Positions 10,776 through 46,774 of a stretch of 64,000 nt of DNA are shown one piece after another. The DNA is taken from positions 186,282-250,281 of the forward strand of contig NZ_QVMT01000004.1 in assembly GCF_003418935.1 (NCBI RefSeq), written 5' to 3'. The stretch is from Emticicia sp. C21. GTDB lineage: Bacteria; Bacteroidota; Bacteroidia; Cytophagales; Spirosomataceae. Positions within the stretch are counted from its first letter, which is position 1. Every line of letters begins with the position of its first letter. The position numbers and the translations under genes were made by a program. Below the pieces are notes generated by a model, which ran no database searches, was not told the origin of the DNA, and was given only the letters and a program-made list of their open reading frames with translations.

Positions 10776-10791
10776 ATCTAAAGCCATGCCA
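10776..10791 (-). promoter_or_regulatory. Sigma-54-like promoter element of permease 4
   Basis: Read on the minus strand it is TGGCATGGCTTTAGAT. The -24 part TGGCA matches the sigma-54 consensus, and a G stands 12 bases below the GG as expected. The following base is A where C is usual. The same element recurs at 16725-16740 and 46668-46683. The ATG lies about 36 bp downstream. Confidence 0.65.
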
Positions 10792-10845
10792 AAAACACAA
10801 ATCACTAACAATCAACCAATTACAGCAAAACAATAAAAAGAAATC

Positions 10846-10882
10846 TGTCCGTTTTCGGACGACTTTCGTACGGTGACGGACA
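10846..10882 (-). promoter_or_regulatory. Paired dyad, putative sigma-54 activator site (copy a)
   Basis: The first dyad is TGTCCGTTTTCGGAC (10846-10860) and the second, degenerate dyad is TCGTACGGTGACGGACA (10866-10882). Centres are about 21 bp apart, or two helical turns. The site ends 54 bp from the TGGCAT element. It matches copies at 16794-16831 and 46738-46774. It also lies in the divergent gap before the plus-strand gene at 11039. The rest of this 298-bp gap (10741-11038) shows nothing I can name. Confidence 0.7.
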
Positions 10883-11038
10883 AGGTACTTTTCATCCTTC
10901 CCATTTTTATTTTTATGTAACGATTTATGTATTCTATGCGCCTGATTCTGTTGTATAACCGAAAGTCATTTCTTTGAAAGTCGTTATGATGAAGTTTTGT
11001 ACTGAAATTATTAATCAGCACAAAAATTTCATTGAGTT

Positions 11039-11623
11039 ATGCAATCAAAATCATCGGTTCTCGACAAAAAATTTTGGGCTATTTGTCTAGTATTAGGGCA
11101 GTTCATTGTGATTATCAGTTCTTTTCTCTGGAAAGAAAACGGCCGCCATTCTGTCAATGGCTCAGTTCTGGTATTTTTTTCTACTCTATTCCTTGCTATT
11201 GGTATGGTGGGTTTGTTCTACGTGCTCAAACCAAAAATGCCCATCTATTCACGCTTAGGCTTTTTATATGGTATGTATGGTATCTTCGGAGGAGTTGGTT
11301 TTGCCTTTGAGGGATTGTATTCAAGTGCTTTAAATATTTCAGATACAATCGGTCTCGAAGCATTTAAATCTTTTCCCACACAGATGAATCTGGTTCTTTA
11401 TTGGAGTGGGCCAGCTTTTCCGCTTACATTCCTGATTCTGGGCATTGTTTATATCCGTGTTAAGGTCGTGAAATGGTGGGTTGGTGTAATGCTGTCTTTA
11501 GGAGGCATTACTTTCCCTATAAGCCGGATTTTACGCAACGAATGGATTGCTCATTTGAATGATGTCATTCTATTTATACCTTTATGTATCATTGCCTACC
11601 AATTCTGGAACGACGCTGAATAA
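11039..11623 (+). CDS. Multi-pass membrane protein of unknown function
   Basis: A 194-residue hydrophobic protein with about six membrane segments (near residues 12-30, 41-62, 72-92, 117-138, 142-158 and 169-187). I do not recognise a named family. Its stop overlaps the start of the next gene by one base (TAATG), so it is translationally coupled to the LytS-like kinase at 11623 and forms a three-gene operon with the kinase and LytTR regulator. A role as a sensory or signalling membrane partner of the kinase is plausible but is inference from position only. I used the ATG at 11039; another frame opening at 11032 is a shadow. Confidence 0.75.
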   Translation: MQSKSSVLDKKFWAICLVLGQFIVIISSFLWKENGRHSVNGSVLVFFSTLFLAIGMVGLFYVLKPKMPIYSRLGFLYGMYGIFGGVGFAFEGLYSSALNISDTIGLEAFKSFPTQMNLVLYWSGPAFPLTFLILGIVYIRVKVVKWWVGVMLSLGGITFPISRILRNEWIAHLNDVILFIPLCIIAYQFWNDAE

Positions 11624-12732
11624 TGAGACCTAATAATTTTTTCAGTAATTCATTCTTTCAGTTTATTATCATTACCCTCATCAACTTCGGGTTAGGAGGA
11701 GGTCTGTTTCTATTCGCAACCCTTTCAGGTTATGAAGCTCCTGCAGACGCTCCTCTTGGAGCATCCAACGATTTTATATTTTATGATAATCTGCTTGAAT
11801 CATTCATGGCTGTTGTGGTTATCTACCTCTACCGCCGTTATACTTTTATCGACAAACAAAAAACCTTTTTAAACTACTTAACCCTGGGTATTCTTTTATA
11901 TGCAGGCAAAGGGCTATTAATACTTTTGAGTGCCAAAGACATGCCGTTCCACTATACTTTCCACGATTTATTTTTCAGGATTAACGGCTCTATTGTATTC
12001 AGGCTGAATCTGGTTTGGGCAGGTTTATTTGCTTATTACTGGGTAGAAAACGAGAAAACCCGGGAACAGCACTTTTTATTGAAAGAATTAGAATTGACCC
12101 AATTAAAAGAACTCAAAACCAAAGCAGATTTAGAAGCTTTACAGGCTAAAATCAACCCGCATTTTCTTTATAATTCCCTGAATTCTATTGCCAATGCCAT
12201 AGAAGATGAGCCGCAAAAAGCCAAACAGATGACCTTGTTATTGAGTAAGTTTTTCAGATTTACCACCAATTCGCAAAGCCAATATTACTGGACATTGAAT
12301 GAAGAACTGGATTTAGTACAAACCTACCTCTCAATCGAAAAAATCAGGTTTGGTGATAGACTTGATTTTATGATTCCAGCACCTGAATCAGAACTATCTG
12401 CCTGCTTGATTCCACGTTTTCTTATTCAGCCTTTAGTGGAAAATGCCATTAAGCATGGCATTTCAAAAATAGCGGGTAAAGGCATGATGGGTATACAGGC
12501 AAGTGCCTCGAATGAGTTTATAGAATTGAAGATTTATGACAATGGTGTGCTTTTTCAGTCGGGTTTTCAGCAAGGCTATGGATTAAGAAGTATCCATGAA
12601 AAAATAAAATTGCTAGGTGGAGAAAACGCTACCGTCGAAGTTTTCAATGAGTCTCCTGTAAGTATTAACAATTACCATGAATATCCCACTAAATATATTC
12701 TAATTCGTCTTCCTAAAAAGTATACATCATGA
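11623..12732 (+). CDS. LytS-type sensor histidine kinase
   Basis: A 369-residue inner-membrane kinase of the His_kinase (LytS/YehU) class. About four membrane segments occupy residues 10-34, 56-72, 82-103 and 122-142. A short coiled coil follows near 150-175. The phospho-acceptor is in the motif KINPHFLYNSLNSI, with the His at residue 180. The ATPase N-box QPLVENAIKHG has its Asn near 274, DNG near 306-308 stands for the G1 box, and GYGLRSIHEK near 319 for the second glycine motif. There is no periplasmic sensor domain of any size. It overlaps the response regulator by four bases (ATGA), so it surely forms a pair with it. The stimulus is unknown. Confidence 0.94.
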   Translation: MRPNNFFSNSFFQFIIITLINFGLGGGLFLFATLSGYEAPADAPLGASNDFIFYDNLLESFMAVVVIYLYRRYTFIDKQKTFLNYLTLGILLYAGKGLLILLSAKDMPFHYTFHDLFFRINGSIVFRLNLVWAGLFAYYWVENEKTREQHFLLKELELTQLKELKTKADLEALQAKINPHFLYNSLNSIANAIEDEPQKAKQMTLLLSKFFRFTTNSQSQYYWTLNEELDLVQTYLSIEKIRFGDRLDFMIPAPESELSACLIPRFLIQPLVENAIKHGISKIAGKGMMGIQASASNEFIELKIYDNGVLFQSGFQQGYGLRSIHEKIKLLGGENATVEVFNESPVSINNYHEYPTKYILIRLPKKYTS

Positions 12733-13484: not shown

Positions 13485-13571
13485 CTATTTAGCCTGAAAG
13501 ATTTTTACTGGTATTCCAACCATTTTCTAAAGAACAGTATCATAATAGTATTACCTTAAATCTATTTTTGT

Positions 13572-14093: not shown

Positions 14094-14112
14094 GATTTGG
14101 AACTGAATGATA

Positions 14113-14149
14113 AAAAAATGGCAAAAGGGCTTCCCTCTTGCCATTTTTA
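14113..14149. terminator. Bidirectional hairpin terminator
   Basis: The arms AAAATGGCAAAAGGG and CCTCTTGCCATTTTT flank a short loop, with A and T runs on the outer sides. It sits between two convergent genes, the lipoprotein at 13572 and the permease at 14189. Confidence 0.85.
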
Positions 14150-14188
14150 TTTTTATAAAAAACAAAACTCTTTATTCCGTTCTCCAAA

Positions 14189-16585
14189 TTATTCCGTCTT
14201 CAACGATTTCACCGGGTTCATCAAAGCCGCTCTTAACGCCTGTCCACCAACAGTCAGAAACGCAATAATAATCGTAATCACAGCTGTAATAACGAAAATG
14301 GGAACGCCGATTGAAATGCGATAAGGATAGTTCTTGAGCCATTCCTGAGCTGCATAAAATGCCAACGGGAAAGCAAAAATAAATGATAAACCTACCAGTT
14401 TCAGAAAGTCGGTAGAAAGCAATTGAATAAGACTACCTACCGATGCACCCAATACTTTACGGATACCTATTTCTTTGGTGCGTTTTTCTGCCGATAAAGT
14501 GGCCAGACCAAACAAGCCAATGCACGAAATAAAGATAGTGAGCGCTGCACCAAATAGCATAATTTGTTTCCATTTAGCTTCTGACTCATATTTTTTCAGA
14601 TTTTCAGCTTCCATAAACTTATAATCATACGAGTTGATAGGAAACAATTTTCTAAAAGTCTTTTCAATATGTTTCAGGCTTGCTACCTCTGTATTGGGCT
14701 TAATTTTAATATAAACTGTTCCGTATCTGTTACCAGGTTTCATTGTAAATAGTTGTGAGCCAATTTCCTGATTTAAGGCATTAAAATGATGGTTTTTCAC
14801 TACGCCTATTACCTTATATTTGGTATTATTATCATACCAGAAATTCACTTCCTGCCCTATTGGGTTTTTCCAGCCCGCTTTCTTTACAAATGCCTCATTC
14901 ACAATGACAGATTGCGTAGAATCTGAAGGAAAATCAGGAGAAAAATTGCGACCCTGTAAAATAGGTATTTTCAGAAGCGGCAAGAACGCCGGATTCACAG
15001 TTTCGTAGGCAAAATCAATTTGTTTATCACCATTAATCTTGGCAATTGTCCCCCATTGTCCACCATTTTTAGGGGCAACTTCAACGATATTCGGGTTTTT
15101 CTTCAATTCGTCAATCAATACATGTGCTTCGCTATGCGCCATTCGCCATTTATCAACTGTTATCAGGTTTTTATCATCGTAGCCTAATTCTTTGGTAGTT
15201 AGATAATCAAACTGTGAATAGATGGTAAGCGTAGCAATAATCAGAAAAGAAGCCAGGCCAAACTGCACTACTACCAGACTTTTCTGCAAATAGTTTTTAC
15301 CAGTCAGATTAAAACGGCTATATAAAGTCTTCACCGGGTCATAGCCTGACAATACCAAAGCAGGATAAAAACCTGCCAGTAGGCTCGTAATAAAGAAAAG
15401 TACAATATATGCTACAACTAGTTTAACATCAAACAAATAAGAGAATGCCAGAGCTTTATTAGCCAATTGGTTAAATGTAGGCAATACAATTTGCAAAATA
15501 CCAATAGCCAACATAAAGGCTATTGAACATAATACAAAAGACTCGCCTAAAAACTGCATAATCAATTGTTTCCTATCCCCACCTACTACCTTTCTTACAC
15601 CAATTTCTTTGGCACGTTTCAACGAACGGGCAACCGTCAGATTAATAAAGTTGATACAGGCAATCAGCAAAATAAAGAGCGCAATACCGGTCAGGATATA
15701 AGAGAATGTAGGATTACTAGCATCAGACAGACCATTTTGCGCAGCAAAAGCCGTGCTCAGGTGCATATCAGTCAATGGTTGAAGAGCATAGCGGGCTTTT
15801 TCCTTTATATCATAATCCTTCATCATCTTCTGAATACTCTCCTTTGCATCAGCTTCATACACTCGTTTCATTTTTGCTTCAGCGGCAGTTGCAGTAGAGT
15901 TTGGCTGTAATAATACAAACGTATTCAGAAAGAAGTTAAACCAGTTTTCATTATTCTGATACTCTTCGTTCTTAACAATCATCGGCAACAAAAAATCAAA
16001 TTTAACAGATGAGTTCTGAGGTGCTTTTTTGGCTACTCCTGTAATCTGATAAGGGACTAATTTTTCATCTTCTACAAAGTCGATGGTCTTACCCAATACA
16101 TCTGTATTCTTGAAGAGTTTTTCAGCCATTTCATCTGTAATAACTACTGATTTAGGCTTTTCAAGTGCCGTAGCCGGATTCCCACTAATCAATGGAAATG
16201 TGAATACAGAAAAGAAATTACGGTCGGTTTCCATCATGCCATACCCTTTGATTTCTGCTCCCTGACGAATATTTCTGAAATCGCTTCTTAATCTTACAAA
16301 AGACTGAATGTCAGGCACGCCATCCTTGAATTTCGGACCCTGGAAATAGCCAGTAGTACCATCCCCCTGTTTCACGCTCCCATCTGGGTTAATCCATTGG
16401 GTAGTAACCCGATAGATATTAGCACTATTGGCATGGAAGCGGTCGTAACTCACCTCATCTTTGGTATAAAGCATAATGAGCATAGCTGCTGCCAAGCCAA
16501 TGCTTAATCCGGCAATATTAATAAAGCTGTAAACCTTATTCCGGAAAAGGTTACGCCATGCGATTTTTAAGTAATTGCGTATCAT
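14189..16585 (-). CDS. MacB/FtsX-type ABC permease, array member 5
   Basis: A 798-residue permease. I prefer the ATG at 16585 (MIRNYLKIAWRNLFRNKVYS) over one two codons upstream, because it matches the paralogues. The coupling helices are KRAKEIGVRKVVGGDRKQL and RTKEIGIRKVLGASVGSL, and it ends MNPVKSLKTE. Module 1 closes with GYDPVKTLYSR in place of the usual LKGK. It has its own sigma-54-like element at 16725-16740, with a family A repeat standing between promoter and gene. The terminator at 14113-14149 ends this transcript, so it is probably a one-gene unit under the shared regulator. Confidence 0.95.
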   Translation of the reverse strand: MIRNYLKIAWRNLFRNKVYSFINIAGLSIGLAAAMLIMLYTKDEVSYDRFHANSANIYRVTTQWINPDGSVKQGDGTTGYFQGPKFKDGVPDIQSFVRLRSDFRNIRQGAEIKGYGMMETDRNFFSVFTFPLISGNPATALEKPKSVVITDEMAEKLFKNTDVLGKTIDFVEDEKLVPYQITGVAKKAPQNSSVKFDFLLPMIVKNEEYQNNENWFNFFLNTFVLLQPNSTATAAEAKMKRVYEADAKESIQKMMKDYDIKEKARYALQPLTDMHLSTAFAAQNGLSDASNPTFSYILTGIALFILLIACINFINLTVARSLKRAKEIGVRKVVGGDRKQLIMQFLGESFVLCSIAFMLAIGILQIVLPTFNQLANKALAFSYLFDVKLVVAYIVLFFITSLLAGFYPALVLSGYDPVKTLYSRFNLTGKNYLQKSLVVVQFGLASFLIIATLTIYSQFDYLTTKELGYDDKNLITVDKWRMAHSEAHVLIDELKKNPNIVEVAPKNGGQWGTIAKINGDKQIDFAYETVNPAFLPLLKIPILQGRNFSPDFPSDSTQSVIVNEAFVKKAGWKNPIGQEVNFWYDNNTKYKVIGVVKNHHFNALNQEIGSQLFTMKPGNRYGTVYIKIKPNTEVASLKHIEKTFRKLFPINSYDYKFMEAENLKKYESEAKWKQIMLFGAALTIFISCIGLFGLATLSAEKRTKEIGIRKVLGASVGSLIQLLSTDFLKLVGLSFIFAFPLAFYAAQEWLKNYPYRISIGVPIFVITAVITIIIAFLTVGGQALRAALMNPVKSLKTE

Positions 16586-16680
16586 AAACACCCCTAGCCC
16601 CCAAAGGGGGACTTTTTTTAAGTTAGATAATATATACTCCCAACCGCGCGACGGTCGCCCCTAAAGGGGAGTTTCTAAAA
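16586..16680. repeat. Family A intergenic inverted repeat, in a promoter leader
   Basis: The left arm CACCCCTAGCCCCCAAAGGG starts a few bases from the ATG of permease 5. The right arm reads GTCGCCCCTAAAGGGGAG and is preceded by the CCGCGCGACGG block, also seen at 36818 and, with changes, at 39388. The sigma-54-like promoter lies beyond it, so the repeat is in the predicted 5' leader. Confidence 0.8.
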
Positions 16681-16724
16681 TTAAACAATTTCCAGTATAG
16701 CCTTTTCATTTTTAAAACTTTATT

Positions 16725-16740
16725 ATCCAAAGCTATGCCA
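16725..16740 (-). promoter_or_regulatory. Sigma-54-like promoter element of permease 5
   Basis: The minus strand reads TGGCATAGCTTTGGAT. It differs at two positions from the element before permease 4 and continues with the same GATAAT extension. It has GG and then G at the expected 12-base spacing, with A in place of C at the last position. The ATG is about 140 bp downstream. Confidence 0.65.
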
Positions 16741-16793
16741 AAACTTCAATACACTCACTATCAATACATTACATCCAATTAAAAATAAAATCC

Positions 16794-16831
16794 TGTCCAT
16801 TTTCGGACAGGATTTCGTACAGTAACGGACA
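16794..16831 (-). promoter_or_regulatory. Paired dyad, putative sigma-54 activator site (copy b)
   Basis: The first dyad TGTCCATTTTCGGACA (16794-16809) and the second TTCGTACAGTAACGGACA (to 16831) align with copies a and c. The near end is 53 bp from the TGGCAT element. It starts only 19 bp from the stop of permease 6. Confidence 0.7.
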
Positions 16832-16849
16832 ATACTTTCTCCATTTCCC

Positions 16850-19216
16850 CTACTCAGTCTTTAACGATTTCACCGGATTCACTAGCGCTGCCCTGATGGC
16901 CTGATAGCTAATGGTTAATAGGGCAATAACAACCGCAACTATACCAGTGGCAGCAAATATCCACCATTCGATAGAGACGTGGTAAGCGAAATCTTTTAAC
17001 CATTCTGCCATAAAGTAATAGGATACTGGAACAGCAATGATGATTGATAGAAAAACTAATCTTAAAAAATCTAAAGATAATAGTGAGGTAATGCTGAAAA
17101 CAGAAGCCCCTAATACTTTACGGATGCCTATTTCTTTAGTGCGCTGTTTGATTGAGAAAGTAGCCAACCCAAACAAGCCAAGGCAAGAAATAAAGACAGA
17201 TAAAGCCGCAAAGGTTTTAGTCAGGTTACTGATCAATTCTTCTCTTTCATAAAAACGAGCCACATCTTCTTTGAAATACGAATATTCAAATACATTATCT
17301 GGATACAATTTCTCCCATATTTTGGCAATATCCTGAATCGTGTTTGGATTATAAGCTTTTAATCGAACGGCGGCATAACGGTAATGACTACGTGAAGAAA
17401 AAATAACCGTTGGCTCTACACCTGTATACAAGTCTGTATTGTTGAAGTCAGCTACTACCCCTACTATAATACCTGTTTTGCTTAAATCACCCACCAATAA
17501 CTTTTTATCAAGAATTTCTTCCGGTGATTTCAGCCCCAAACTTTTTACCATTTTTTCGTTTACTAATAACTCGCGTAAAGTATCAGAAGCCACGGGTTTA
17601 TGTCCGGCTACAAGTTTAATATCATACGTATCAATATAGACTTCATCGGCCATTTTAGACCTTGCTACAAACTTTTCCCAATCTCTGTTTTCGTACTTAA
17701 TGCTGCCCCCGCTACCTGTTTTTGAAGATGGGGCCGTTCGGAAAAATGAAATATTTTCAATATTCGCTTGTTGAAGCAGCTGATTCTTGAAGGTCGTCAG
17801 TTTGTCGGCTTCAGGATTTGGGATATTCACATGCAGAATCATGTCTTTTCTCAGTCCCAAATCTTTATTTTTCAGATAATCTAATTGCAAAACCACCAGC
17901 ATCGAAACGGCAATCAGAATACAGGCAATACTGAATTGCGTTACTACCAACCCTTTTCTCAACGTAAATTTCTTAGGCAGTTCAGTAATATTTTTAAGAG
18001 CCTTTAAAGGATTGAAATTGGCAATAATCATGGCAGGATAAAACCCTGCAATGAACACAATGGTAATCAGTAAAACCACAATAAAGCCTATCAATTTCAC
18101 ATCAGACAAAAGATTCATGCTTATTGGTGTTTTCAGCCACTGACCCAGGAAAGGGGCAGTTGAATAGGCTATTGAAATAGCCAAAACTACCGACAATATA
18201 GCCACCACAGCTGTTTCACTGATAAACTGCCAGAAAATCTGTCCTTGAGAGCTACCTAATGTTTTTCTGACACCCACTTCCTTGTAACGCTTAAATGATA
18301 ATGCCGTAGATAAATTAATGAAATTGATACAGGCAATAATTACCATTAACACTCCAATCACCAATAATAAATTGATAGTAGCCATCTTGATTTTACCACC
18401 GTAATCAATATTAAAATGTATATCTGATAAGTCTTGCAGGCAGTACTTAAATACTTCACTATCAGCACCATGATACTTTTTTGAGAAAGCAGGCATTTGC
18501 TTTTCAAACGCTTCTTTCTGGTCTTTTGAACGAAGCATAACAAATGTCTCGCGACTGCTTTCAATCCAGCCCCAGTCTTCGTAGCCATAATTCGGTACCA
18601 ATATTTTCAAGGTAGGCAGAGAAACAAAAATATCTGTTTTTAAATCAGTGTTATCAGGATTATCTTTGATTATACCTGCAACAACTACTTCCTGCTGATT
18701 CTCCAGCTTCATGCTTTTGCCGATGGGATTTTGAGAGCCAAAAAACTTCAAAGCATAGCGTTCTGTCAAAACAGCTTTATTTGGTTCATCTAAAACTGCC
18801 GGAGTCCCGGTTTCCCATTCATAGTCGAATATTTTGAAGTAATCAGCATTAGTAAAGGCTGCCGATTCTTTTTCCAGATATTTACGCACATTGTTATTTT
18901 CAGTGAGAGCAATAGTCAAAGGCCGATGTGCCAGATAAGTAGTTTGTTCAATTGAAGGGTACTCTTTCTTAAGTGTGCTGTGCAAAATATAAGCACTTCC
19001 TTTTGAGCGCTCAATCTGACCATCTCCCAGATGCAAATCAACTACTGATCGATAGATTCTATCAGCATTTTTATGATAAGCATCTACACTTAAATGGTAT
19101 TTCACTAATTGAAAAACCAATATCCCACCTGCCATCCCTAAGGCAAGTCCGGCTATATTCAGAAATGTAAAAAGCTTATTTCTGTTTAAAACTCTGAGTG
19201 TAAATTTCAATTTCAT
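16850..19216 (-). CDS. MacB/FtsX-type ABC permease, array member 6
   Basis: A 788-residue permease starting MKLKFTLRVLNRNKLFTFLNI, which departs from the MIRNYLKIA N-terminus of most of the array. The coupling helices are KRYKEVGVRKTLGSSQGQI and RTKEIGIRKVLGASVFSI, and it ends VNPVKSLKTE. It groups with members 4 and 14 by its second periplasmic domain (KIWEKLYPDNVFEY, VARFYE). It is the last gene of the 11-permease stretch that follows the ATPase. No hairpin lies directly after its stop, but the activator site for permease 5 does. Confidence 0.95.
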   Translation of the reverse strand: MKLKFTLRVLNRNKLFTFLNIAGLALGMAGGILVFQLVKYHLSVDAYHKNADRIYRSVVDLHLGDGQIERSKGSAYILHSTLKKEYPSIEQTTYLAHRPLTIALTENNNVRKYLEKESAAFTNADYFKIFDYEWETGTPAVLDEPNKAVLTERYALKFFGSQNPIGKSMKLENQQEVVVAGIIKDNPDNTDLKTDIFVSLPTLKILVPNYGYEDWGWIESSRETFVMLRSKDQKEAFEKQMPAFSKKYHGADSEVFKYCLQDLSDIHFNIDYGGKIKMATINLLLVIGVLMVIIACINFINLSTALSFKRYKEVGVRKTLGSSQGQIFWQFISETAVVAILSVVLAISIAYSTAPFLGQWLKTPISMNLLSDVKLIGFIVVLLITIVFIAGFYPAMIIANFNPLKALKNITELPKKFTLRKGLVVTQFSIACILIAVSMLVVLQLDYLKNKDLGLRKDMILHVNIPNPEADKLTTFKNQLLQQANIENISFFRTAPSSKTGSGGSIKYENRDWEKFVARSKMADEVYIDTYDIKLVAGHKPVASDTLRELLVNEKMVKSLGLKSPEEILDKKLLVGDLSKTGIIVGVVADFNNTDLYTGVEPTVIFSSRSHYRYAAVRLKAYNPNTIQDIAKIWEKLYPDNVFEYSYFKEDVARFYEREELISNLTKTFAALSVFISCLGLFGLATFSIKQRTKEIGIRKVLGASVFSITSLLSLDFLRLVFLSIIIAVPVSYYFMAEWLKDFAYHVSIEWWIFAATGIVAVVIALLTISYQAIRAALVNPVKSLKTE

Positions 19217-19292
19217 GGTTTTTCATGGAGCAGAGGGCTAGGGGCATGGGGAAGAGTTAACCCTCTGCCCCATGCCCCATGCCTCCTGCTAT
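19217..19292. repeat. Family C intergenic inverted repeat
   Basis: The left arm (GCAGAGGGCTAGGGGCATGG) pairs with the right arm (CCCTCTGCCCCATGCCCC). It is related to the element at 4704-4776 and fills the gap between permeases 6 and 7. Confidence 0.75.
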
Positions 19293-21692: not shown

Positions 21693-21818
21693 AAATATAC
21701 CCCTAGCCCCTAAAGGGGGACTTTTTTAAAAGTTGAAAAAAATACGCCCCTAAACCCTAAAGGGGGGTAAAATTATATAATACTCGTGCGCAAGCAGCTC
21801 CCCTTTAGGGGCGGGGGG
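21693..21818. repeat. Family A intergenic inverted repeat
   Basis: The left arm ACCCCTAGCCCCTAAAGGGG is close to the permease 7 start. A second CCCTAAACCCTAAAGGGGGG block lies in the middle. The right arm CAGCTCCCCTTTAGGGGCGG is preceded by CTCGTGCGCAAG and abuts the stop of permease 8. This is one of the best-preserved copies. Confidence 0.87.
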
Positions 21819-24239: not shown

Positions 24240-24352
24240 AAACCCCTCCGAATCGTCGGACCGTCCCCTAAAGGAGGATTTTTAAAAGTTAGATAATATT
24301 CTTCTACAACTTGTAGGTACAATATAGCACCCCTTTAGGGGCGGGGGCGGTT
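24240..24352. repeat. Family A intergenic inverted repeat (variant)
   Basis: The left arm is altered to ACCCCTCCGAATCGTCGGAC followed by CGTCCCCTAAAGGAGG. The right arm GCACCCCTTTAGGGGCGGGG is standard but lacks the CTCGTGCGCAAG block. It lies between the tandem duplicates 8 and 9. Confidence 0.75.
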
Positions 24353-26776: not shown

Positions 26777-26899
26777 AAACCCCTAGCCCCTAAAGGGGGA
26801 CTTTTTAAAAGATTGAAAAATCACCTTCCTAACCCCTAAAAGAAGGCTGCTCTAAACTTAATAATCTTTTCTTAGCTCCCCTTTAGGGGTGGGGGGCTG
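26777..26899. repeat. Family A intergenic inverted repeat
   Basis: The left arm ACCCCTAGCCCCTAAAGGGG begins next to the start codon of permease 9. The right arm AGCTCCCCTTTAGGGGTGGG ends at the stop region of permease 10. The middle holds a decayed CCTAACCCCTAAAAGAAGG block. Confidence 0.83.
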
Positions 26900-29314: not shown

Positions 29315-29398
29315 AATTTTGAAATTTTAATGATTAAAGCTTGAAGTTAAGCCCTCAATTAATCATTCTCATTTCATTTAAGTTAATTTAACACTCTC
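29315..29398. other. Permease junction without a family A, B or C repeat
   Basis: This 84-bp AT-rich gap has only a small inverted repeat, TTTTAATGATTAAAG against CAATTAATCATTC. It is the one permease-permease junction that lacks the large hairpin elements. Confidence 0.6.
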
Positions 29399-31765: not shown

Positions 31766-31896
31766 AAAATTCGCCCCTACCCCCCTAAAGGGGACTTTTT
31801 AAAAGTTTTATAATTTATTTCCTCATTCCCTCTAAACTATTACTTACGAAAAATTCTCGCGCGCAAGCAGCACCCCTTTAGGGGCGGGGGGCGGCT
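31766..31896. repeat. Family A intergenic inverted repeat
   Basis: The left arm GCCCCTACCCCCCTAAAGGG lies next to the start codon of permease 11. The right arm CACCCCTTTAGGGGCGGGGG is preceded by GCGCGCAAGCAG and runs to the stop of permease 12. Confidence 0.83.
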
Positions 31897-34284: not shown

Positions 34285-34374
34285 ACGAGTATAGGGTAAA
34301 AGGAGAATGGAGAAAGGAACACGGAAGATTAAAAATAAAAATTCTTTTTCCGTTTTCCTTTCTCAATTTTCCAA
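34285..34374. repeat. Family B intergenic inverted repeat
   Basis: The left arm AAGGAGAATGGAGAAAGGAA faces TTTTCCTTTCTCAATTTTCC, able to fold into an imperfect hairpin between permeases 12 and 13. It is related to the copies at 7174 and 41905. Confidence 0.75.
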
Positions 34375-36756: not shown

Positions 36757-36906
36757 AATACACCCCTAGCCCCCAAAAGGGGACGTTTAAAAAGTTAGAT
36801 AATAATTACCCCTAACCGCGCGACGGTCGCCCCTAAAGGGGAATTTTAGTACTCGTGCGTAAGCAACTCCCCTTTAGGGGTCGGGCGGACGCTGCGCGGA
36901 GCGCTT
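36757..36906. repeat. Family A intergenic inverted repeat
   Basis: The left arm ACCCCTAGCCCCCAAAAGGG lies beside the start codon of permease 13. The middle has CCGCGCGACGGTCGCCCCTA as in 16586-16680. The right arm AACTCCCCTTTAGGGGTCGG is preceded by CTCGTGCGTAAG and followed by a GC-rich tail like that at 2252-2273. Confidence 0.85.
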
Positions 36907-39324: not shown

Positions 39325-39459
39325 AATGCCCCTAACCCCTAAAGGGGAATTTAAAATTTAGTTAGATAATAATTAACCCCAACCGTGCGACGGTCACCCC
39401 TAAAGAGGAATTTTCCACTCGTGCGTAAGCAACTCCCCTTTAGGGGCCTGGGGCGGCCG
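39325..39459. repeat. Family A intergenic inverted repeat
   Basis: The left arm GCCCCTAACCCCTAAAGGGG lies beside the start codon of permease 14. The middle holds CCGTGCGACGGTCACCCCTA. The right arm AACTCCCCTTTAGGGGCCTG is preceded by CTCGTGCGTAAG and reaches the stop of permease 15. Confidence 0.85.
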
Positions 39460-41904
39460 TTACTCTGTTTTCAATGATTTCACCGGATTCATTAATGCGG
39501 CTCTGATGGATTGATAGCTGACTGTAAGTAATGCGATAACTACTAAAAGAATCCCTGCTAAAGCAAAAATCCACCAGTTTAGGTCAGTACGATTAGCAAA
39601 GTCCTGTAGCCATTTCTGCATGGCGTAGTAGGCCACCGGAGTTGCTATTACAAAGGCAATGCCGACCATTTTTAGGAAATCAACAGAGATAAGATTGACG
39701 ATACTGCCAATACTTGCACCTAATACTTTACGCACACCTATCTCTTTGGTACGCTGTTCGATAATCATTAAGGCAACGGCGAAGAGTCCCATACAAGAGA
39801 GCATTATAGCTATACCTGCGGCAAGGCTAAAAATCTGTGAAAGACGTTCTTCTTTATTAAACCAACGGTCAACATTCTCATTAATGAATGAGCCTTTAAA
39901 TTCCTGGTTAGGGACTAATTTCTTCCAGGTATTCTTCACCAGATCCATCGATTCTGCCAGATTCTGATTGCCGGTTCTTATCAATATATAGTTGACTCTT
40001 CCTTTAGGGGCCATTTCTAAAGTAATAGTCCGGTTTTCGCGACGTAAAGAGTATAAATTAAAATCAGCGATCACACCAATAATTTTTTGTTTACCAACTG
40101 ATGAATCAGGCATCAGAAACTTATCTACCCCCTGTTTTTCACCCATTTGTTTCAACATACTTTCGGTTACTATCAATGCTGTTGAATCTGTTCCATATGA
40201 CGGGCTGAAGTCTCTGCCTTCAATGGTTTTGATACCCATCGTTTTTATGAAATCATAATCTACACGTACCCAGTCAGTCAGGATACTTTTTGAGTTTTTA
40301 GTATCGCTTGCATTCGGATAATAATCAAAGCCGTAGGTGCTTCTTGAAGAACTTCCATCCAGGCCATTACCAAAATTGATTTGAGAACCTGATACTGACT
40401 CAATGCCCGGGTATTTTGATAACTCATTACGGAATTGCTGCACAGCCGTCTGGTTATTTAAGGCATTACCGATAGGCACACTGATAACCTGTTCTTTACT
40501 ATATCCGAGTGGCTTGTTTCTCAGGTATTTTAATTGAGTAAAAATTACCAGTGTACAACTAATAAGTATACAAGAAATAGAAAACTGAACAATAATTAAG
40601 GAGTTGCGCAATACGCCGGGCTTTTTCCTGGTCAGTTTTCCTTTTAATACCTGTACAATATTAAAACGGGAAGAAACAAATGCCGGATACCCCCCGGCAA
40701 TAAGGGTAATTAAGATAAAGCTTATAAGGCTTATGATTAAATTATCAGGAATTAAGAAATTATCTATCGAAAGACTGGAGTCAAATAATTTATTGAATTG
40801 TGGCAAGAAAGCATAAGCCATGCCTAAGCCTGCGATTAAAGCAACCACACAAACGAGCAATGCCTCACCCCAACCTTGCAGGAATAGCTGACCTTTGTTG
40901 GCACCTAAAGATTTACGTACACCAACTTCTTTAGCTTGTGTAAATGATTTAGCGATAGTCAGGTTAATAAAATTGATAGAAGCAATCAGGACAATCAGTA
41001 AGGCAATAGTTAATAATGTATAAATATAATTCTTGCTTACGCCACTCCCCCAACCTGTGATTTCATCGAAATGAACCTCTTTCAGGGGCATCATTAGCAA
41101 GCTCAGATATTGTCCTCTTGCATTTTTTAAACGCCCTGCTTTCTTTGCATCTTCTTCTGAGGTCTTCATATATTTATTCACCAAAGACTCAAAACGTTTT
41201 TCGGCAGAAGCCTGGGTGGTATTAGCAGCCAACTTCACATATACCTGATGGTTCTGACTTGTCCATCTGTCTTTGATTGGTTCGTAACCAGGATTTTTTT
41301 CAGTCCGTATCAAGGCATCATATCTCACGGTAGAATTTTTCGGAGCATCATCTATCACGGCTGTAACAATAAATGGTACTTTCTCATTTGATAAGGTTAC
41401 TAATACCTGCTTGCCAATAGGTTCTTCTTTACCAAATATATTTTCTGCCGTAGTCCTGCTGATGACGATATTGTTTTTGTCTGCTAAAGCAGTATTCATA
41501 TTTCCTTTTAAAAGTGGGAAAGAAAATACTTTCAGAAAGTCAGCATCAACTGTTTGTATAGTTTTTTCAAATTTCTTTTCCTGATACGTTAGCTCTCCGG
41601 CTCCCCAACTATAACTGGTAACTGCTTCCACTTCCGGGTATTCAGTCTTTAAAACTGGTGTAAGTGGATAGGCCATGGCAGCACTGTACTCCTGCTTTCC
41701 GCCTTTATCGGCAGTATTAAAATACAGACAATACACACGGTCAGCGTCTTTATGGAAGGTGTCATAAGAAAATTCGTAAGAGGCCGTGAGGTACAATAAA
41801 ATACTGCTACCAAAAGCCACAGCCAGACCCACCATATTAATAGCGGTATGAACCTTGTTTTTCCAAAGCTTACGAAAGGCGATTTTTAAATAATTTTTGA
41901 TCAT
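39460..41904 (-). CDS. MacB/FtsX-type ABC permease, array member 15 (sister of member 16)
   Basis: An 814-residue permease, the longest complete member, starting MIKNYLKIAFRKLWKNKVHTA. The coupling helices are TQAKEVGVRKSLGANKGQL and RTKEIGVRKVLGASIGSI, and it ends MNPVKSLKTE. It pairs with member 16: both have AFG(S/C)(S/A)ILL(Y/F)LTA in TM1, S(A/N)-(A/S)-PLTP-LK in the first periplasmic domain, LPLKEVHFDE or LPMPEMHFNK before TM2, and SCMGLFA(V/I)ALM before the second coupling helix. A Gly- and Ser-rich segment in the second periplasmic domain (NFGNGLDGSSSRS) is typical of this pair. Confidence 0.95.
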   Translation of the reverse strand: MIKNYLKIAFRKLWKNKVHTAINMVGLAVAFGSSILLYLTASYEFSYDTFHKDADRVYCLYFNTADKGGKQEYSAAMAYPLTPVLKTEYPEVEAVTSYSWGAGELTYQEKKFEKTIQTVDADFLKVFSFPLLKGNMNTALADKNNIVISRTTAENIFGKEEPIGKQVLVTLSNEKVPFIVTAVIDDAPKNSTVRYDALIRTEKNPGYEPIKDRWTSQNHQVYVKLAANTTQASAEKRFESLVNKYMKTSEEDAKKAGRLKNARGQYLSLLMMPLKEVHFDEITGWGSGVSKNYIYTLLTIALLIVLIASINFINLTIAKSFTQAKEVGVRKSLGANKGQLFLQGWGEALLVCVVALIAGLGMAYAFLPQFNKLFDSSLSIDNFLIPDNLIISLISFILITLIAGGYPAFVSSRFNIVQVLKGKLTRKKPGVLRNSLIIVQFSISCILISCTLVIFTQLKYLRNKPLGYSKEQVISVPIGNALNNQTAVQQFRNELSKYPGIESVSGSQINFGNGLDGSSSRSTYGFDYYPNASDTKNSKSILTDWVRVDYDFIKTMGIKTIEGRDFSPSYGTDSTALIVTESMLKQMGEKQGVDKFLMPDSSVGKQKIIGVIADFNLYSLRRENRTITLEMAPKGRVNYILIRTGNQNLAESMDLVKNTWKKLVPNQEFKGSFINENVDRWFNKEERLSQIFSLAAGIAIMLSCMGLFAVALMIIEQRTKEIGVRKVLGASIGSIVNLISVDFLKMVGIAFVIATPVAYYAMQKWLQDFANRTDLNWWIFALAGILLVVIALLTVSYQSIRAALMNPVKSLKTE

Positions 41905-41998
41905 AATTTTTTTGGTTAAAGGAACAAGGAGAAAGGAAAATGGAGAATGAAATTTATTAATTTCTTCCTTGCTCCGTTCTCCTTTTTCCTTTCTCCAA
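41905..41998. repeat. Family B intergenic inverted repeat
   Basis: The left arm AAGGAACAAGGAGAAAGGAA faces CTTGCTCCGTTCTCCTTTTT. It lies between the sister permeases 15 and 16. Confidence 0.78.
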
Positions 41999-44422
41999 TT
42001 ATTCTGATTTCAATGACCTAACCGGATTCATTAATGCTGCTCTGATAGACTGATAGCTTACAGTAAACAGGGCTATCAATAGCGCCACCACACCCGCTAA
42101 CCCGAAAACCCACCAGGTGATTTCGGTACGATACGCAAAGTCCTGAATCCATTTATTCATCAGGTAGTACGCCAATGGCGTAGCAATCAGAATGGCAATC
42201 AGGACTAATACTACAAACTCCTTTGAAAGCAAGGCTACCAGATTTGGTACACTTGCTCCTAAAACTTTACGGATACCTATTTCTTTGGTGCGTTGCGCCA
42301 TCATCATCAAAGCAATGGCAAACAAGCCCATACAAGAAAGGATAATAGTTAAAGTGGCCGCACTCATCACAATCTGCGACATTCTCTCTTCTTTCTTATA
42401 TTGATTATCAGTATTTTCGTCCAGGAAAGAAGGCATATATTCTGATTTTGGGGCAATTTCTTTGTAGACTTTGCCAATCAGGTCGATAGTTGTTTTTGGT
42501 GTTTCAGGCGTAAGTTTTACGAAAATATAATTGACACCGAAATCGCCCTGATAAAGGAAAGTTATCGCTTCAATTTTATTTTTCAACGACTCAAAATGAT
42601 AATCTTTTACTACCCCTACAATGGTTTTGCCCAGGCTATCACCCAAACCTATTTTTTTACCTATAGGATCTTTATATCCTAATTGTTTAACCATTGTTTC
42701 GTTCACGATACACGCTCTGTCTTTATCTGATGGGAACTCACGAGAAAATTCTCTACCTGCTACTAAGGTCAAGCCCAATGTTTTTACATAATCGTAATCG
42801 ATACTTAAACCGTTGGTACGGTAAGTTTTACCTTCCATTTCAAAGCTATAAACTGATTTATAACCTGAGCCATCCTTGCCTCTGCCAATATTTATATCTG
42901 CTCCGGTAATGCTTACAATCTGAGATTCATTCGCCAGCTTATTACGCATAAATTCCAATACCTTTCCCCCTTGTACTTCATTACCCACAGGAATACTGAT
43001 TACCTGTGTTTGATTGAAGCCTAGCGGTTGGTTGCGTAAATAGTCTATCTGTTTCCAGATAATAAGCGTACAGCTAATCAATAAAATAGCAATGCTGAAT
43101 TGGGCTACAATCAGGGCACTTCTAATACCTCCTGAACGGGAGCTTACTTTTATTTTTCCTTTTAAAACTTCTACTGTGTTGAATTTAGCTACAGCTAAAG
43201 CCGGGTATCCTCCAGCAATTAAAGTGATAATCAAAAAGCTGGAAAGTAATAGAATACCCACCATAGGGCTAAGGAGATTTTCGAAAGTAAGGTTACTTCT
43301 GAATAAGGTGTTATATTGTGGCATCAGGGTAGTAGCCAATACGCACCCGATGCCAAATGCCAGAATACAGATAATAAAGGCTTCTCCCCAGAATTGCCCT
43401 ACAATCTGGGCTTTCAGTGCGCCCAACGCTTTTCTCATGCCTACTTCTTTGGCACGGGTCATTGAGCGGGCAATAGAAAGATTAATGAAGTTGATACAAG
43501 CAATTAGTAACACTAAACCACTGATAACTAATAATATGTAAGGATAAGCAATGTCAATTGAACGGCTTCCACCTGCTTGTTTATTAAAGTGCATTTCAGG
43601 CATTGGCAATAAACGTAGGCTGCGTACTTCTCCTCTTTCATCAGGTTTTGCGCCGTCTTTTTTTAGTTGCTCAATACTGCCTTTATAATATTTTTCAGTA
43701 AAGGATTTCAGGCGTCTTTCAAAACTCAGGTAATCAACTTTATCAGCCAGTTGCACATATACATCATGATAATTTGAGTCCCATTTTTCTTTTGAGTCTT
43801 TATATTCAGGATTATTCTCAAAACGCATCAACATATCATTCTCAATTGATGAGTTTTTTGGCGCTTTTTCCATCACTCCTGTTACGACAAAACTTTCAAT
43901 TCTGCCACCAAAATTCAATTGCACAGTTTTGCCGACAGGGTCAGCCTTATCGAATATCTTTTCAGCTACTTCTTCATTCAAAACCACACTGCGCAAATCA
44001 TTCAGGGCTATGTCGGGATTTCCTTTCAGCATTTTGAAAGAAAACATTTTCAGAAAATCAGCATCAACATAGCGAATGTCTTCATCAATCGTTTTCTCGC
44101 CTTGCACAATCTGCACACCACTGCTTACAATACGCGTAGCATACTTAATCTCAGCATTGAAATCACTTTTCAAGGCTGGCGTTAAAGGTGTAGACAAATT
44201 AGACTGATACTCTATTTTTTCAGGTTGATTGATCTTGAAGTAAGTTCTGAAAATTCGGTCTTTATTAGCCTGAAAATCATCGTAGGTAAACTCAAAATAA
44301 GCTGTCAGAAATAGCAAAATAGCGCAACCGAAAGCGATTGACAGCCCTACGATATTGATAGAGGTATATGCTTTATTCTTCCAGAGATTACGAAGGGCGA
44401 TTTTGAAATAATTTTTTAACAT
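41999..44422 (-). CDS. MacB/FtsX-type ABC permease, array member 16 (nearest the ATPase)
   Basis: An 807-residue permease starting MLKNYFKIALRNLWKNKAYTS. The coupling helices are TRAKEVGMRKALGALKAQI and RTKEIGIRKVLGASVPNL, and it ends MNPVRSLKSE. It is the sister of member 15 (see NIGRGKDGSGYKS in the second periplasmic domain). It is the first permease after the ATPase gene, 156 bp away, with a palindrome at 44487-44502 in the gap. I see no sigma-54-like element directly before it, so it probably belongs to the transcript that starts before the fusion-protein gene or has a separate promoter. Confidence 0.95.
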   Translation of the reverse strand: MLKNYFKIALRNLWKNKAYTSINIVGLSIAFGCAILLFLTAYFEFTYDDFQANKDRIFRTYFKINQPEKIEYQSNLSTPLTPALKSDFNAEIKYATRIVSSGVQIVQGEKTIDEDIRYVDADFLKMFSFKMLKGNPDIALNDLRSVVLNEEVAEKIFDKADPVGKTVQLNFGGRIESFVVTGVMEKAPKNSSIENDMLMRFENNPEYKDSKEKWDSNYHDVYVQLADKVDYLSFERRLKSFTEKYYKGSIEQLKKDGAKPDERGEVRSLRLLPMPEMHFNKQAGGSRSIDIAYPYILLVISGLVLLIACINFINLSIARSMTRAKEVGMRKALGALKAQIVGQFWGEAFIICILAFGIGCVLATTLMPQYNTLFRSNLTFENLLSPMVGILLLSSFLIITLIAGGYPALAVAKFNTVEVLKGKIKVSSRSGGIRSALIVAQFSIAILLISCTLIIWKQIDYLRNQPLGFNQTQVISIPVGNEVQGGKVLEFMRNKLANESQIVSITGADINIGRGKDGSGYKSVYSFEMEGKTYRTNGLSIDYDYVKTLGLTLVAGREFSREFPSDKDRACIVNETMVKQLGYKDPIGKKIGLGDSLGKTIVGVVKDYHFESLKNKIEAITFLYQGDFGVNYIFVKLTPETPKTTIDLIGKVYKEIAPKSEYMPSFLDENTDNQYKKEERMSQIVMSAATLTIILSCMGLFAIALMMMAQRTKEIGIRKVLGASVPNLVALLSKEFVVLVLIAILIATPLAYYLMNKWIQDFAYRTEITWWVFGLAGVVALLIALFTVSYQSIRAALMNPVRSLKSE

Positions 44423-44486
44423 AGTTTTTTCAAAATTAAATGTGGGGAGGACAGGCTGTGGAATGGCAATAGCAAATGAAGCTTAC

Positions 44487-44502
44487 TATGATTTGTATCA
44501 TA
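44487..44502. promoter_or_regulatory. Palindrome before permease 16
   Basis: TATGAT-TTGT-ATCATA is a perfect 6-bp dyad with a 4-bp spacer in the 156-bp gap between the ATPase and permease 16. It could be a regulator site or part of an RNA hairpin. A weaker hairpin, TTCCCGAC against GTCAGGAA, lies at 44546-44566, just after the ATPase gene. No regulator can be assigned. Confidence 0.4.
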
Positions 44503-44578
44503 ATAAGCCCATTTTACAGCATTTTAACGTTTATTAACTCGTCTTATTCCCGACAGGTAGTCAGGAAATATCTTTACA

Positions 44579-45256
44579 CTATACGTGGAAATTCTCTGTT
44601 ACTACCTTACCATCGAAGAGGTTGATAATTCTGTGAGAGAATCCTGCATCATAAGGTGAGTGGGTAACCATGATAATAGTAGTGCCTTCATTGTTCAGCT
44701 CCTGAAGCAATTTCATTACTTCTTCGCCGTTGGTAGAGTCTAAGTTACCAGTAGGCTCATCGGCAAGAATTAATTTTGGTTTAGCTACCACCGCACGTGC
44801 AATAGCTACACGTTGTTGCTGACCACCCGATAATTGTTGCGGAAAGTGATTGCGACGGTGCATGATATTCATTCTCTCTAATACTTCTTCTACCTTTTTC
44901 TTACGTTCGGTAGCAGGTGTTTTTAAGTATAAAAGAGGAAGTTCTACGTTTTCGAAAACTGTTAATTCGTCAATCAGATTAAAGCTCTGGAAAATGAAAC
45001 CAATATTCCCCTTGCGGTGTGAAGCGCGTTCTCTCTCAGTCAATTTGGCTACTTCAACGCCATAGAAATCATAGCTTCCTTCAGATGGGTTATCTAACAA
45101 GCCCATGATATTGAGCAGGGTTGATTTACCACATCCTGATGGACCCATGATGGCAACGAATTCACCATCTTTGATATTCATGTCAATACCATTCAGGGCG
45201 GTAGTTTCTACCTCTTCGGTAGTGAACACTTTTTGAAGATTAGATACTTTTATCAT
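44579..45256 (-). CDS. ABC transporter ATPase (LolD/MacB type)
   Basis: A 225-residue stand-alone ATPase. Walker A is GPSGCGKST at residues 38-46, the Q-loop Gln is at 90, the signature LSGGQ is at 142-146, Walker B is ILADEP at 163-168 with the catalytic Glu at 167, and the H-loop His is at 199. EPTGNLDS after Walker B is typical of the LolD/MacB/FtsE branch, which works with FtsX-type permeases. It is the only ATPase gene in the window, while 16 permeases follow it on the same strand and none has a fused ATPase. The natural inference is that one ATPase can drive many of them. It lies 57 bp after the fusion-protein gene. Confidence 0.96.
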
Positions 45257-45313
45257 AATTTTTGTTTTTTATTTCTTGAATATCAAGGGTATTTGTTTAT
45301 AAGTTTATACAGA

Positions 45314-46564
45314 TTATTTTAGATCAAGAACTTCATTATCCCCAAAGTTTTCATAAGAAGAAGTGATTACTTTATCACCTACTTCAAGTCCTTCTAATAC
45401 TTCAAAGTATTCAGGATTTTTGCGACCTAAGGTGATTTTGCGTTTTACTGCTTTGCCACCTGATTTATCTAATACATACACCCAGTTTCCACCTGTATCA
45501 GAGAAGAATCCACCTACTGGTAAAAGTACGGCTTTCGTAGCTTTACCCAATTCTAAACGAATAGGAGAAGATTGCCCTCTTTTAATACCCTCAGGTACAG
45601 TTTTTGAGAAAATCATATCCACCTGGAAACGACCGTTACGAATTTCAGGATAAATTTTGGTAATTTCCAGTGGATAGTCTTTTCCGCCAAATTCAAAAGT
45701 ACCACTCAAGCCTGCGAAAATTCTTCCGTTGTAGTGCTCATCAATATCAACACGTAGTTTGAAACCATTCAAGTCGTCAATTTGACCAATGTTTTGTCCC
45801 TGGCTTATATTAGAACCTACCTCTACATCGATTGATGATAATAAACCTGCAACAGGTGCTTTTACCACAAGGTTTTCAAGTGTTTCACGCCATAATTGTA
45901 CGTTTTTCTGTGTGCGTTCCAAAGTACCTTCCAGTTGTTTAATCTGCATGGCAGCATTTTCTTCCTGGTATCTTTGTGACTCTACATCAATTTCTTTCTG
46001 GCTTACCAACTTTTCGTAATCACGTTTCGCTTTCAGATAGTCAGCCTCGGGAATTACCTTGTCGTTATACAATTTCTTGTTTCTCTCGTATAAATCTTTA
46101 GCCTGATCTGTCAAAAAATCTAAGTCTGACATATTCTTACGAATCGTAAATTTCTCTACTTTCAAGCGTTGGCGTGTATTCTGTAAGTCGTTCACCAATC
46201 GGCTTGCTTCTGTTTCTGACTGTAAGAAATTAAGCTTTAAATTCTGATTCTCTAATTTTAATATTACCTGACCTTGTTTCACTATATTACCGCCATCTAC
46301 TACTTTCTCCTTTACGTATCCTCCTACGATGGCATCCAAGCGAATAATTCTCAAAGGCAATACCACTCCCGTAACCACGATAAACTCATCGAATGTACCA
46401 TTAGTTACCTGTGAAATAGTCATTTTATCTTTTTCCGCATTCAGTGTTGAGCGTCTGTCTGCAAAAAGCAAGCTATAAGCTGCAAATGAGGCAAATAATA
46501 CGCCACCAAGGGTTAATAAGATTCGCTGTCTACTCCAGAATTTCTTTTTTATCTGCTTGTCCAT
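45314..46564 (-). CDS. HlyD/MacA-type periplasmic adaptor (membrane fusion protein)
   Basis: A 416-residue membrane fusion protein. An N-terminal anchor lies at residues 13-32. A lipoyl-like half follows (GGYVKEKVVDGGNIVKQGQ near 85-105), then a long coiled-coil hairpin near 110-220, the second lipoyl half (KAPVAGLLSSIDVEVGSN near 235-252), and a beta-barrel and membrane-proximal domain to the end. Such adaptors link an inner-membrane ABC or RND pump to an outer-membrane exit duct. No TolC-like gene is present in the window, so the duct must be encoded elsewhere. The gene is the first of the ATPase-permease run, with a sigma-54-like promoter and activator site upstream. Confidence 0.93.
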   Translation of the reverse strand: MDKQIKKKFWSRQRILLTLGGVLFASFAAYSLLFADRRSTLNAEKDKMTISQVTNGTFDEFIVVTGVVLPLRIIRLDAIVGGYVKEKVVDGGNIVKQGQVILKLENQNLKLNFLQSETEASRLVNDLQNTRQRLKVEKFTIRKNMSDLDFLTDQAKDLYERNKKLYNDKVIPEADYLKAKRDYEKLVSQKEIDVESQRYQEENAAMQIKQLEGTLERTQKNVQLWRETLENLVVKAPVAGLLSSIDVEVGSNISQGQNIGQIDDLNGFKLRVDIDEHYNGRIFAGLSGTFEFGGKDYPLEITKIYPEIRNGRFQVDMIFSKTVPEGIKRGQSSPIRLELGKATKAVLLPVGGFFSDTGGNWVYVLDKSGGKAVKRKITLGRKNPEYFEVLEGLEVGDKVITSSYENFGDNEVLDLK

Positions 46565-46667
46565 TGTAATTTTTTAATTGCTATACAATTCGTGTTTAGG
46601 CAAATTGTTGTCTGTTACTGATTGTTAATTAAGTCTAAAAATAAGATTTAAATCTAATCATTCATAA

Positions 46668-46683
46668 TTCACAATGTGTGCCA
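46668..46683 (-). promoter_or_regulatory. Sigma-54-like promoter element of the adaptor-ATPase-permease run
   Basis: The minus strand reads TGGCACACATTGTGAA. TGGCAC is the exact -24 consensus, and the G of the -12 region is at the right spacing, followed by A in place of C. The adaptor ATG is about 104 bp downstream. Confidence 0.65.
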
Positions 46684-46737
46684 ATTATTTTAAATGACTG
46701 ATTATCAGTAGTTTAAGAAATAAATACACTTTAAAAT

Positions 46738-46774
46738 TGTCCGATTTCGGACAATGCTTGTACGCTCACGGACG
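46738..46774 (-). promoter_or_regulatory. Paired dyad, putative sigma-54 activator site (copy c)
   Basis: The first dyad TGTCCGATTTCGGACA (46738-46753) is a perfect inverted repeat with 7-bp arms. The second, CTTGTACGCTCACGGAC (to 46774), is degenerate. It ends 54 bp from the TGGCAC element and lies in the 370-bp divergent gap (46565-46934) between the adaptor and the response regulator, so it could also control the regulator gene. I see nothing else definite in this gap. Confidence 0.75.

Follow-up and report, generated by a model that had tools for sequence, protein, structure and literature searches.

Three copies of a paired palindrome, each at a nearly constant distance from a sigma-54-type promoter element and each ahead of genes for a putative export system, raise the question of whether a single regulator switches these genes and how far its reach extends. 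The copies lie in the window analysed here, a stretch of 64,000 nucleotides (G000:C28:186282-250281) of the 6.64-Mb genome of Emticicia sp. C21 (G000), which also encodes an NtrC-type response regulator (46935..48287, plus strand); positions elsewhere in this genome are given with a contig prefix. Sequence comparisons make it very likely that the modules are NtrC-type enhancers coupled to sigma-54 promoters and served by this regulator, forming one switch for 15 units.

Architecture of the modules

All three modules read on the minus strand. The enhancer of module M1 (10846..10882) has two dyads with a centre-to-centre distance of 21 bp and lies 54 bp from a sigma-54-type -24/-12 element, TGGCATGGCTTTAGAT (10776..10791), which was aligned with those of relatives; it reads TGTCCGTCACCGTACG-N5-CGTCCGAAAACGGACA, then after 54 bp TGGCATGGCTTTAGA. 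M2 (16794..16831) is 38 bp long with dyad centres 22 bp apart, and reads TGTCCGTTACTGTACG-N6-TGTCCGAAAATGGACA followed after 53 bp by TGGCATAGCTTTGGA, its element being TGGCATAGCTTTGGAT (16725..16740). M3 (46738..46774), situated in the space that separates hlyD from the divergent regulator gene, has centres 21 bp apart and reads CGTCCGTGAGCGTACA-N5-TGTCCGAAATCGGACA, with TGGCACACATTGTGA after 54 bp; its element is TGGCACACATTGTGAA (46668..46683), and 20 bp before the TGG of that element begins an exact match to the consensus of the integration host factor (IHF), WATCARNNNNTTR (46691..46703). The positions of the three pairs, and the distance of 53-54 bp to a TGGCAY element claimed by the first-pass annotation of this DNA, were exact on re-checking, the gaps being 54, 53 and 54 bp. 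All three elements also fit the form TGGCAY-N5-TNG. Its description of the modules as identical, with dyads aligning base for base, has to be given up, since the pairs are 71-84% identical to one another and M2 departs in length and centre spacing. The promoter element it had written as TGGCA(T/C)-N8-GA does contain TGGCAY, with seven rather than eight positions before GA, and this GA is not conserved in relatives: across 25 aligned modules the constant positions are the invariant TGG of the -24 element, an A and a downstream G, which is the G of the -12 half (25/25).

Within the window, pairs of the form GTCCG-N15..17-GTCCG occur only at M1, M2 and M3. A search for dyad pairs in 1.82 Mb, comprising the window and loci L031-L126, which had been chosen for holding a dyad or the regulator, returned 61 rows (not deduplicated), as against none in one first-order Markov replicate of equal size. 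Single dyads with up to one mismatch showed no enrichment in the genome scan (39, against 37 for the reversed pattern); the signal thus lies in the pairing and the spacing, and dyad pairs and a full-length model were used accordingly.

In 68 non-redundant spacers, searched over a range of 45-71 bp, TGG lies 51-55 bp from the dyad in 48 cases and 62-66 bp from it in 20, and distances of 56-61 bp do not occur. A stricter set of 61 gives 46 at 51-55 bp, 14 at 64-66 bp and one at 85 bp, the last by an alternative pairing at locus L064. The two distance classes differ by about one helical turn, as expected if looping has to bring activator and polymerase together on the same side of the DNA. The dyad centres are themselves 19-23 bp apart (mode 21), and among stretches of 65 bp taken at random from the same DNA only 0.2% contain a strong sigma-54-like element. 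The arrangement as a whole is the classical one of enhancer, bend and promoter. Exact matches to the IHF consensus occur on the module strand of 12 of the 68 spacers, compared with 0.4 in 200 letter shuffles, and all of them begin either 19-20 or 30 bp before TGG; allowing one mismatch, 24 of the 68 have a match versus 7.0 by shuffling.

The regulator and its putative partners

The product of the gene at 46935 combines a receiver domain (PF00072), a Sigma54_activat AAA+ domain (PF00158) and a Fis-type helix-turn-helix (HTH) domain (PF02954), all scoring above their cut-offs. It is 98% identical to its counterpart in Emticicia agri, and its best match among solved structures is 4l4u ('Transcriptional regulator (NtrC family)'), NtrC1 of Aquifex. 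Across 81 regulator sequences the phospho-acceptor region and the recognition helix are strongly conserved. The loop motif of the Emticicia protein is GAFTDA rather than the classical GAFTGA, and this form recurs in 63 of the 81, with 17 unmatched by the pattern and one other match; PMC4641369 lists GAFTDA among the loop variants that would keep function. The Emticicia genome encodes two rpoN-type genes (PF04552, above cut-off), and the second of these (C14:20126-22068) adjoins a match to a sigma-54 activator. These domains and rpoN-type genes, together with the helical phasing and the fixed position of the IHF-like element, strengthen the earlier NtrC/sigma-54 interpretation of the modules.

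The first-pass annotation had called the regulator an orphan, which is correct only as to its position. Of the 79 loci of relatives in which the calling of open reading frames (ORFs) recovered the regulator, to which all counts of gene neighbourhoods refer, 63 have a kinase-like ORF, recognized by a simple motif, immediately downstream of it. The kinase adjoining the regulator in Runella has its best match in the Emticicia genome at C30:307063-308382, with 57% identity and a HATPase_c domain, in a neighbourhood that on reading looks unrelated. This gene is a probable orthologue of the regulator-linked kinase of the relatives, and the putative partner of the Emticicia regulator.

The probable regulon in the Emticicia genome

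A model built purely from module sequences (R1; 25 modules, 12 from this genome and 13 from relatives) recovered 15 matches in the Emticicia genome at E <= 1.2e-7. Twelve of the 15 belong to the training set; the others are C1:137305, C28:163222 and C1:372915, of which the last is partial. The matches ranked below them are mostly the same dyads on the opposite strand or fragments, in addition to a partial match at C23:501714. A further dyad-pair candidate (C12:278282-278303) was not counted, having a weak score and no sigma-54 element at the usual distance.

A permease query recovered 53 near-full-length homologues in the same genome, including one that lacks the first 72 residues (C28:163511) and leaving aside four shorter matches. 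Forty-eight of the 53 belong to runs that follow 14 of the 15 modules on the same strand, when runs are assigned by position with gaps of up to 4 kb. The 15th module (C12:402118) heads a pair of ATPase and TolC/OEP genes. The idea of one regulon under the 46935 regulator is retained with a wider membership, 15 units in place of the three first recognized. Seven units with larger permeases begin with a PadR gene coding for 108-116 amino acids (PF03551; 7/7 above the Pfam cut-off). Among the unit genes examined, 48 encode permeases, two encode ATPases, and an adaptor and a TolC are each represented once. One regulator very probably switches on most of about fifty permease genes together.

The earlier statement that each module in the window precedes a transporter gene applies to M1 and M2, which stand before permeases, whereas M3 precedes an adaptor gene that heads an ATPase and eleven permeases. 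All these genes are encoded by the minus strand. Inside the window (2274..10740), the M1 unit consists of a permease (8347-10740), an alpha/beta-hydrolase (7269-8222) and two more permeases (at 4777-7173 and at 2274-4736); its run extends past the left edge of the window to C28:177150, giving seven permeases in total with an amidohydrolase gene among them. The M2 unit (14189..16591) is a single permease in which the MacB_PCD and the FtsX stretch each occur twice. The M3 unit begins with a HlyD-type periplasmic adaptor (45314..46564; PF13437), followed by an ABC ATPase of the LolD/MacB/DarD type (44579..45256; PF00005) and eleven permease ORFs in a row (16850..44422), homologous to the permease at 14189 and starting at 16850, 19293, 21819, 24353, 26900, 29399, 31897, 34375, 36907, 39460 and 41999.

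Conservation in relatives

The 80 regulator loci compared, the best among 543 relatives found, derive mainly from Chitinophaga, with additional ones from Ferruginibacter, Fulvivirga, Emticicia and others, and are not independent because Chitinophaga dominates the set. In 70 of the 80 (57 of the 67 outside the training set), the module occurs in the 600 bp that precede the regulator, and in two more (L114 and L110) it is about 1.2-1.3 kb away. Three loci whose sequence extends no more than 400 bp upstream (L069, L122 and L125) are without a module match, and the model search recovered no module near the regulator in L054, L076, L085, L107 and L117. A divergent HlyD-like gene stands immediately upstream of the regulator in 69 of the 79 loci with a called regulator, and in 55 an ATPase-like gene comes after it. 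Within four ORFs upstream, permease-like genes likewise occur in 55 of the 79.

Module and regulator also co-occur at the level of genomes. Among 98 genomes of the order, 53 have the module and 51 the regulator, with both in 45 and neither in 39 (Fisher p=4.4e-13); among 158 genomes of the phylum, 29 have both and 116 neither (p=5e-21), the regulator being present in 29 of the 30 module-bearing genomes. These p-values ignore kinship, and the two sets share at least six genomes, the Emticicia genome being in both. Permease counts, scored up to a ceiling of 10 in each genome, were set aside as a measure of regulon size; presence and the candidate numbers of a first look were compared instead, with a Spearman coefficient of 0.80 for the 98 genomes and of 0.56 for the 51 with permeases.

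The first-pass annotation had named in advance, as an outcome speaking against its proposal, that the module should not be enriched upstream of transporter genes in relatives. This was not what we found: the gene ahead of the promoter belongs to the pump or regulator set in 42 of 57 loci (order 15/29, phylum 27/28). In the phylum-level loci the 27 targets match HlyD, ATPase, TolC or permease, some of the TolC and HlyD matches being at 23-28% identity. In Runella (L051:5445-5648) and in genome G010 (L157), promoter matches flank a dyad pair on either side, including the side facing the regulator, which suggests autoregulation there; in Emticicia the direction facing the regulator shows a partial module match only, without a promoter.

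Alternative explanations

Several observations weigh against the reading of the modules as enhancers and promoters of one sigma-54 switch. The -12 half, for which TTGC is expected, is degenerate in the 25 aligned modules, the position of the C after the invariant G being mostly G, A or T, and an exact IHF-like match on the module strand is absent from 56 of the 68 spacers, including those of M1 and M2. Five of the 53 permeases (C1:1152146, C28:473017, C3:167516, C1:104707 and C6:66538) have no module. Successive permeases in a run are separated by gaps of 86-1412 bp, several with palindromes, so that single transcripts are not assured. Eight order-level genomes have the module only, at a regulator threshold of E<=1e-120, and six the regulator only; at the phylum level the corresponding numbers are one and 12. 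No match to the pump or regulator set was found ahead of the promoter in 14 of the 29 order-level loci: by eye one begins with a TolC-like gene and one with an outer-membrane-receptor-like gene, five encode small secreted Ig-like proteins, one a GIN-domain protein (DUF2807), and six have no clear target. The non-pump targets indicate that the regulon is wider than pumps in some relatives. The Ig-like targets (L160, L165, L179, L180 and L182) show weak matches to DUF3244 or Por_Secre_tail, with L182 above the cut-off of the latter.

The regulator itself may have competition. Its paralogue encoded at C23:493395 is 45% identical to it and has a nearly identical recognition helix, GLTRSALYRRLEKYNI, and could share its sites. 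This gene belongs to a paralogous set (locus L192, C23:492074-501650) that encodes HlyD-like, TolC/OEP and ATPase-like proteins, two half-size permeases, the NtrC-type regulator and a kinase. An arrangement in which the modules are sigma-54 enhancers read by several regulators of one motif, with such a paralogue sharing or even dominating the sites, would account for the partial module upstream of the HlyD-like gene of this set (C23:501714, E 8e-6) and for a strong module adjoining a 47%-identical regulator in genome G019; moreover, the Emticicia genome contains six matches of bacterial enhancer-binding protein type. We regard this as unlikely, given that the dyads of the paralogous set are on reading degenerate, and that the presence of the module tracks the orthologue of the 46935 regulator, which it adjoins in most of the loci described above.

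The palindromes could also be thought of as terminator hairpins at the ends of operons instead of activator sites. In M2 the proximal dyad is part of a hairpin of 13 pairs with T-rich DNA after it (16787..16816, minus strand), located immediately past the final permease of the M3 run. A fourth module, M4 (C28:176906, outside the window), folds alike behind the M1 run; the z-scores against shuffles are -5.4 for M2, -6.0 for M4 and -2.5 for C28:77433. In the best folds of M1 (z -2.8) and of the C12 module (z -5.8), one dyad pairs with the other. Yet inverted repeats fold by nature, and M3, which lies between divergent genes, folds little better than its shuffles (z -1.4, with 18 of 200 as good). 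Nor does a terminator role explain why the dyads keep a fixed distance from a sigma-54 element or why they co-occur with an activator. As a replacement for the enhancer function it is therefore very improbable, and is best viewed as a second role: the palindromes of M2 and M4 probably double as the terminator of one operon and the activator site of the next.

Recent duplication of a permease along with its leader, with no regulatory role, would explain why the spacers of M1, M2 and M4 are 69-79% alike; indeed duplication is the probable origin of these three promoters. Their shared spacing is in consequence partly inherited and not independent, which also qualifies the earlier argument that the fixed spacing makes chance unlikely, supported as that is by the excess of dyad pairs over the Markov replicate. 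Other spacer pairs (C1_229-C31, C5-C28_519 and C28_519-C32) are 65-68% alike. However, the M3 spacer is 54-59% alike to those of M1, M2 and M4, inside the range obtained by shuffling (mean 53%, with the 95th percentile at 63%), and the spacers of the C12, C5 and C32 modules are likewise at shuffle level, yet the dyads, spacing and promoter are kept in all of them. The presence of the module in distant members of the phylum, and the alternative spacings about one helical turn apart, are also not explained by duplication, and we consider it exceedingly improbable as the sole cause of the similarity.

Proposed mechanism and implications

In the enhancer model, which we favour, phosphorylated dimers of the 46935 regulator would bind the two dyads, about 21 bp or two helical turns apart and situated approximately 80-120 bp upstream of the predicted transcription start. 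The phosphate would come from a cognate kinase that is encoded at a separate locus in Emticicia and beside the regulator in most of the relatives examined. At some promoters a protein of the IHF/HU family might bend the AT-rich spacer, and by looping the AAA+ domain would contact the sigma-54 polymerase waiting at the -24/-12 element and open the promoter. This single switch would act on 15 units, namely the HlyD adaptor with its ATPase and eleven permeases, the ATPase-TolC pair and 13 further permease units, and would thereby cover 48 of the 53 duplicated permeases of MacB/FtsX type recovered at near full length, presumably co-transcribed within their runs and functioning in export.

The contents of these units suggest one tentative functional idea, namely a mix-and-match export machine in which a shared chassis of the HlyD adaptor, one or two ATPases and TolC takes dozens of orphan permeases, the family having grown by the copying of permeases with their enhancer module. 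If this were so, new permeases would start life inside the regulon, with one two-component system switching all of them. More generally, the modules offer a candidate activator, a motif and a promoter geometry for a large and hitherto unexplained family of duplicated permeases in Bacteroidota. With the adaptor, the ATPases, TolC and 48 permeases predicted to be switched jointly, it becomes directly testable how permeases that have no ATPase of their own are energised, and model R1 can serve as a tool to search for the regulon in unannotated genomes.

Additional features of the window

A LytS/LytTR-like pair of kinase and regulator, recognized by reading, is encoded at 11623-13484, divergent from the M1 unit, and showed no link to a module. 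The gaps beside permease genes contain palindromes of the form CCCCTAAAGGGG, mostly in groups about 60-110 bp across, with 37 matches on both strands at up to one mismatch, where 0.6 are expected. They are located at 2153-2246, 8233-8339, 16598-16669, 21707-21811, 24265-24341, 26787-26889, 31782-31884, 36771-36880 and 39336-39446, and look like a small interspersed repeat or an element resembling repetitive extragenic palindromes (REP).

Comparison with known systems

Enhancer-binding proteins of the NtrC, ZraR and AtoC type act with sigma-54 promoters in the classical glnA/nif-type architecture. The Emticicia system shares with them an activator of receiver, AAA+ and Fis-type HTH domains, tandem upstream dyads, a -24/-12 element, helical phasing and, in a subset, an IHF-like site. 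It differs from them in its TGTCCG-N4-CGKACA sites, the degenerate -12 half, the predominance of GAFTDA, a regulon of pump genes and a kinase that is unlinked. Bacteroidetes LexA was also considered as a binder of the dyads and rejected, as the motifs in the available part of PMC8565304 (GGA-N5-TCC and CTAA-N5-TTAG) do not fit.

At the level of the class Bacteroidia, a statistical association of predicted sigma-54 promoters with COG0577/FtsX-like permeases, termed first evidence, has been reported in 2025 (PMC12316311, available in part). This link concerns the same permease family, and the available part of that report gives no activator, enhancer motif, geometry or regulon membership. Of two further papers, PMC9723704 mentions sigma-54 once, uninformatively for this point, and PMC3162934 gave no hit in a search by term. 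The titles and abstracts of the literature matches listed contain no description of the motif, activator or regulon, which does not establish their absence from print.

The permeases resemble the ADOP family (TIGR03434), members of which are linked with PadR regulators: both are duplicated MacB_PCD-FtsX proteins of about 800 amino acids, and a PadR gene starts seven of the Emticicia units. They are distinguished from ADOP by the sigma-54 enhancer and by a regulon held in common with an ATPase, an adaptor and TolC, and three scanned permeases score 299.5, 273.1 and 346.3 bits against an ADOP cut-off of 622.3. The darobactin exporter DarBCD gives the best NCBIfam match for the adaptor (DarC) and the ATPase (DarD), and the second for the permease (DarB). 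The scores are, however, 114-164 bits for the three permeases (cut-off 700), 196 for the adaptor (cut-off 450), and 285 for the M3-unit ATPase and 252 in a second DarD match (cut-off 375). As the three scanned permeases fall below the cut-offs of both ADOP and DarB, we do not name the permeases as members of either; from the resemblance to DarBCD, one might guess that their cargo is peptides. In distinction to MacB, in which an ATPase is fused to one permease half, two scanned permeases have no ABC_tran domain and carry the MacB_PCD and FtsX stretches twice each, and solved structures of MacB match only about 130 residues of one permease. Thus, in conclusion, we file the regulon as new and its architecture as one of the known NtrC/sigma-54 kind.

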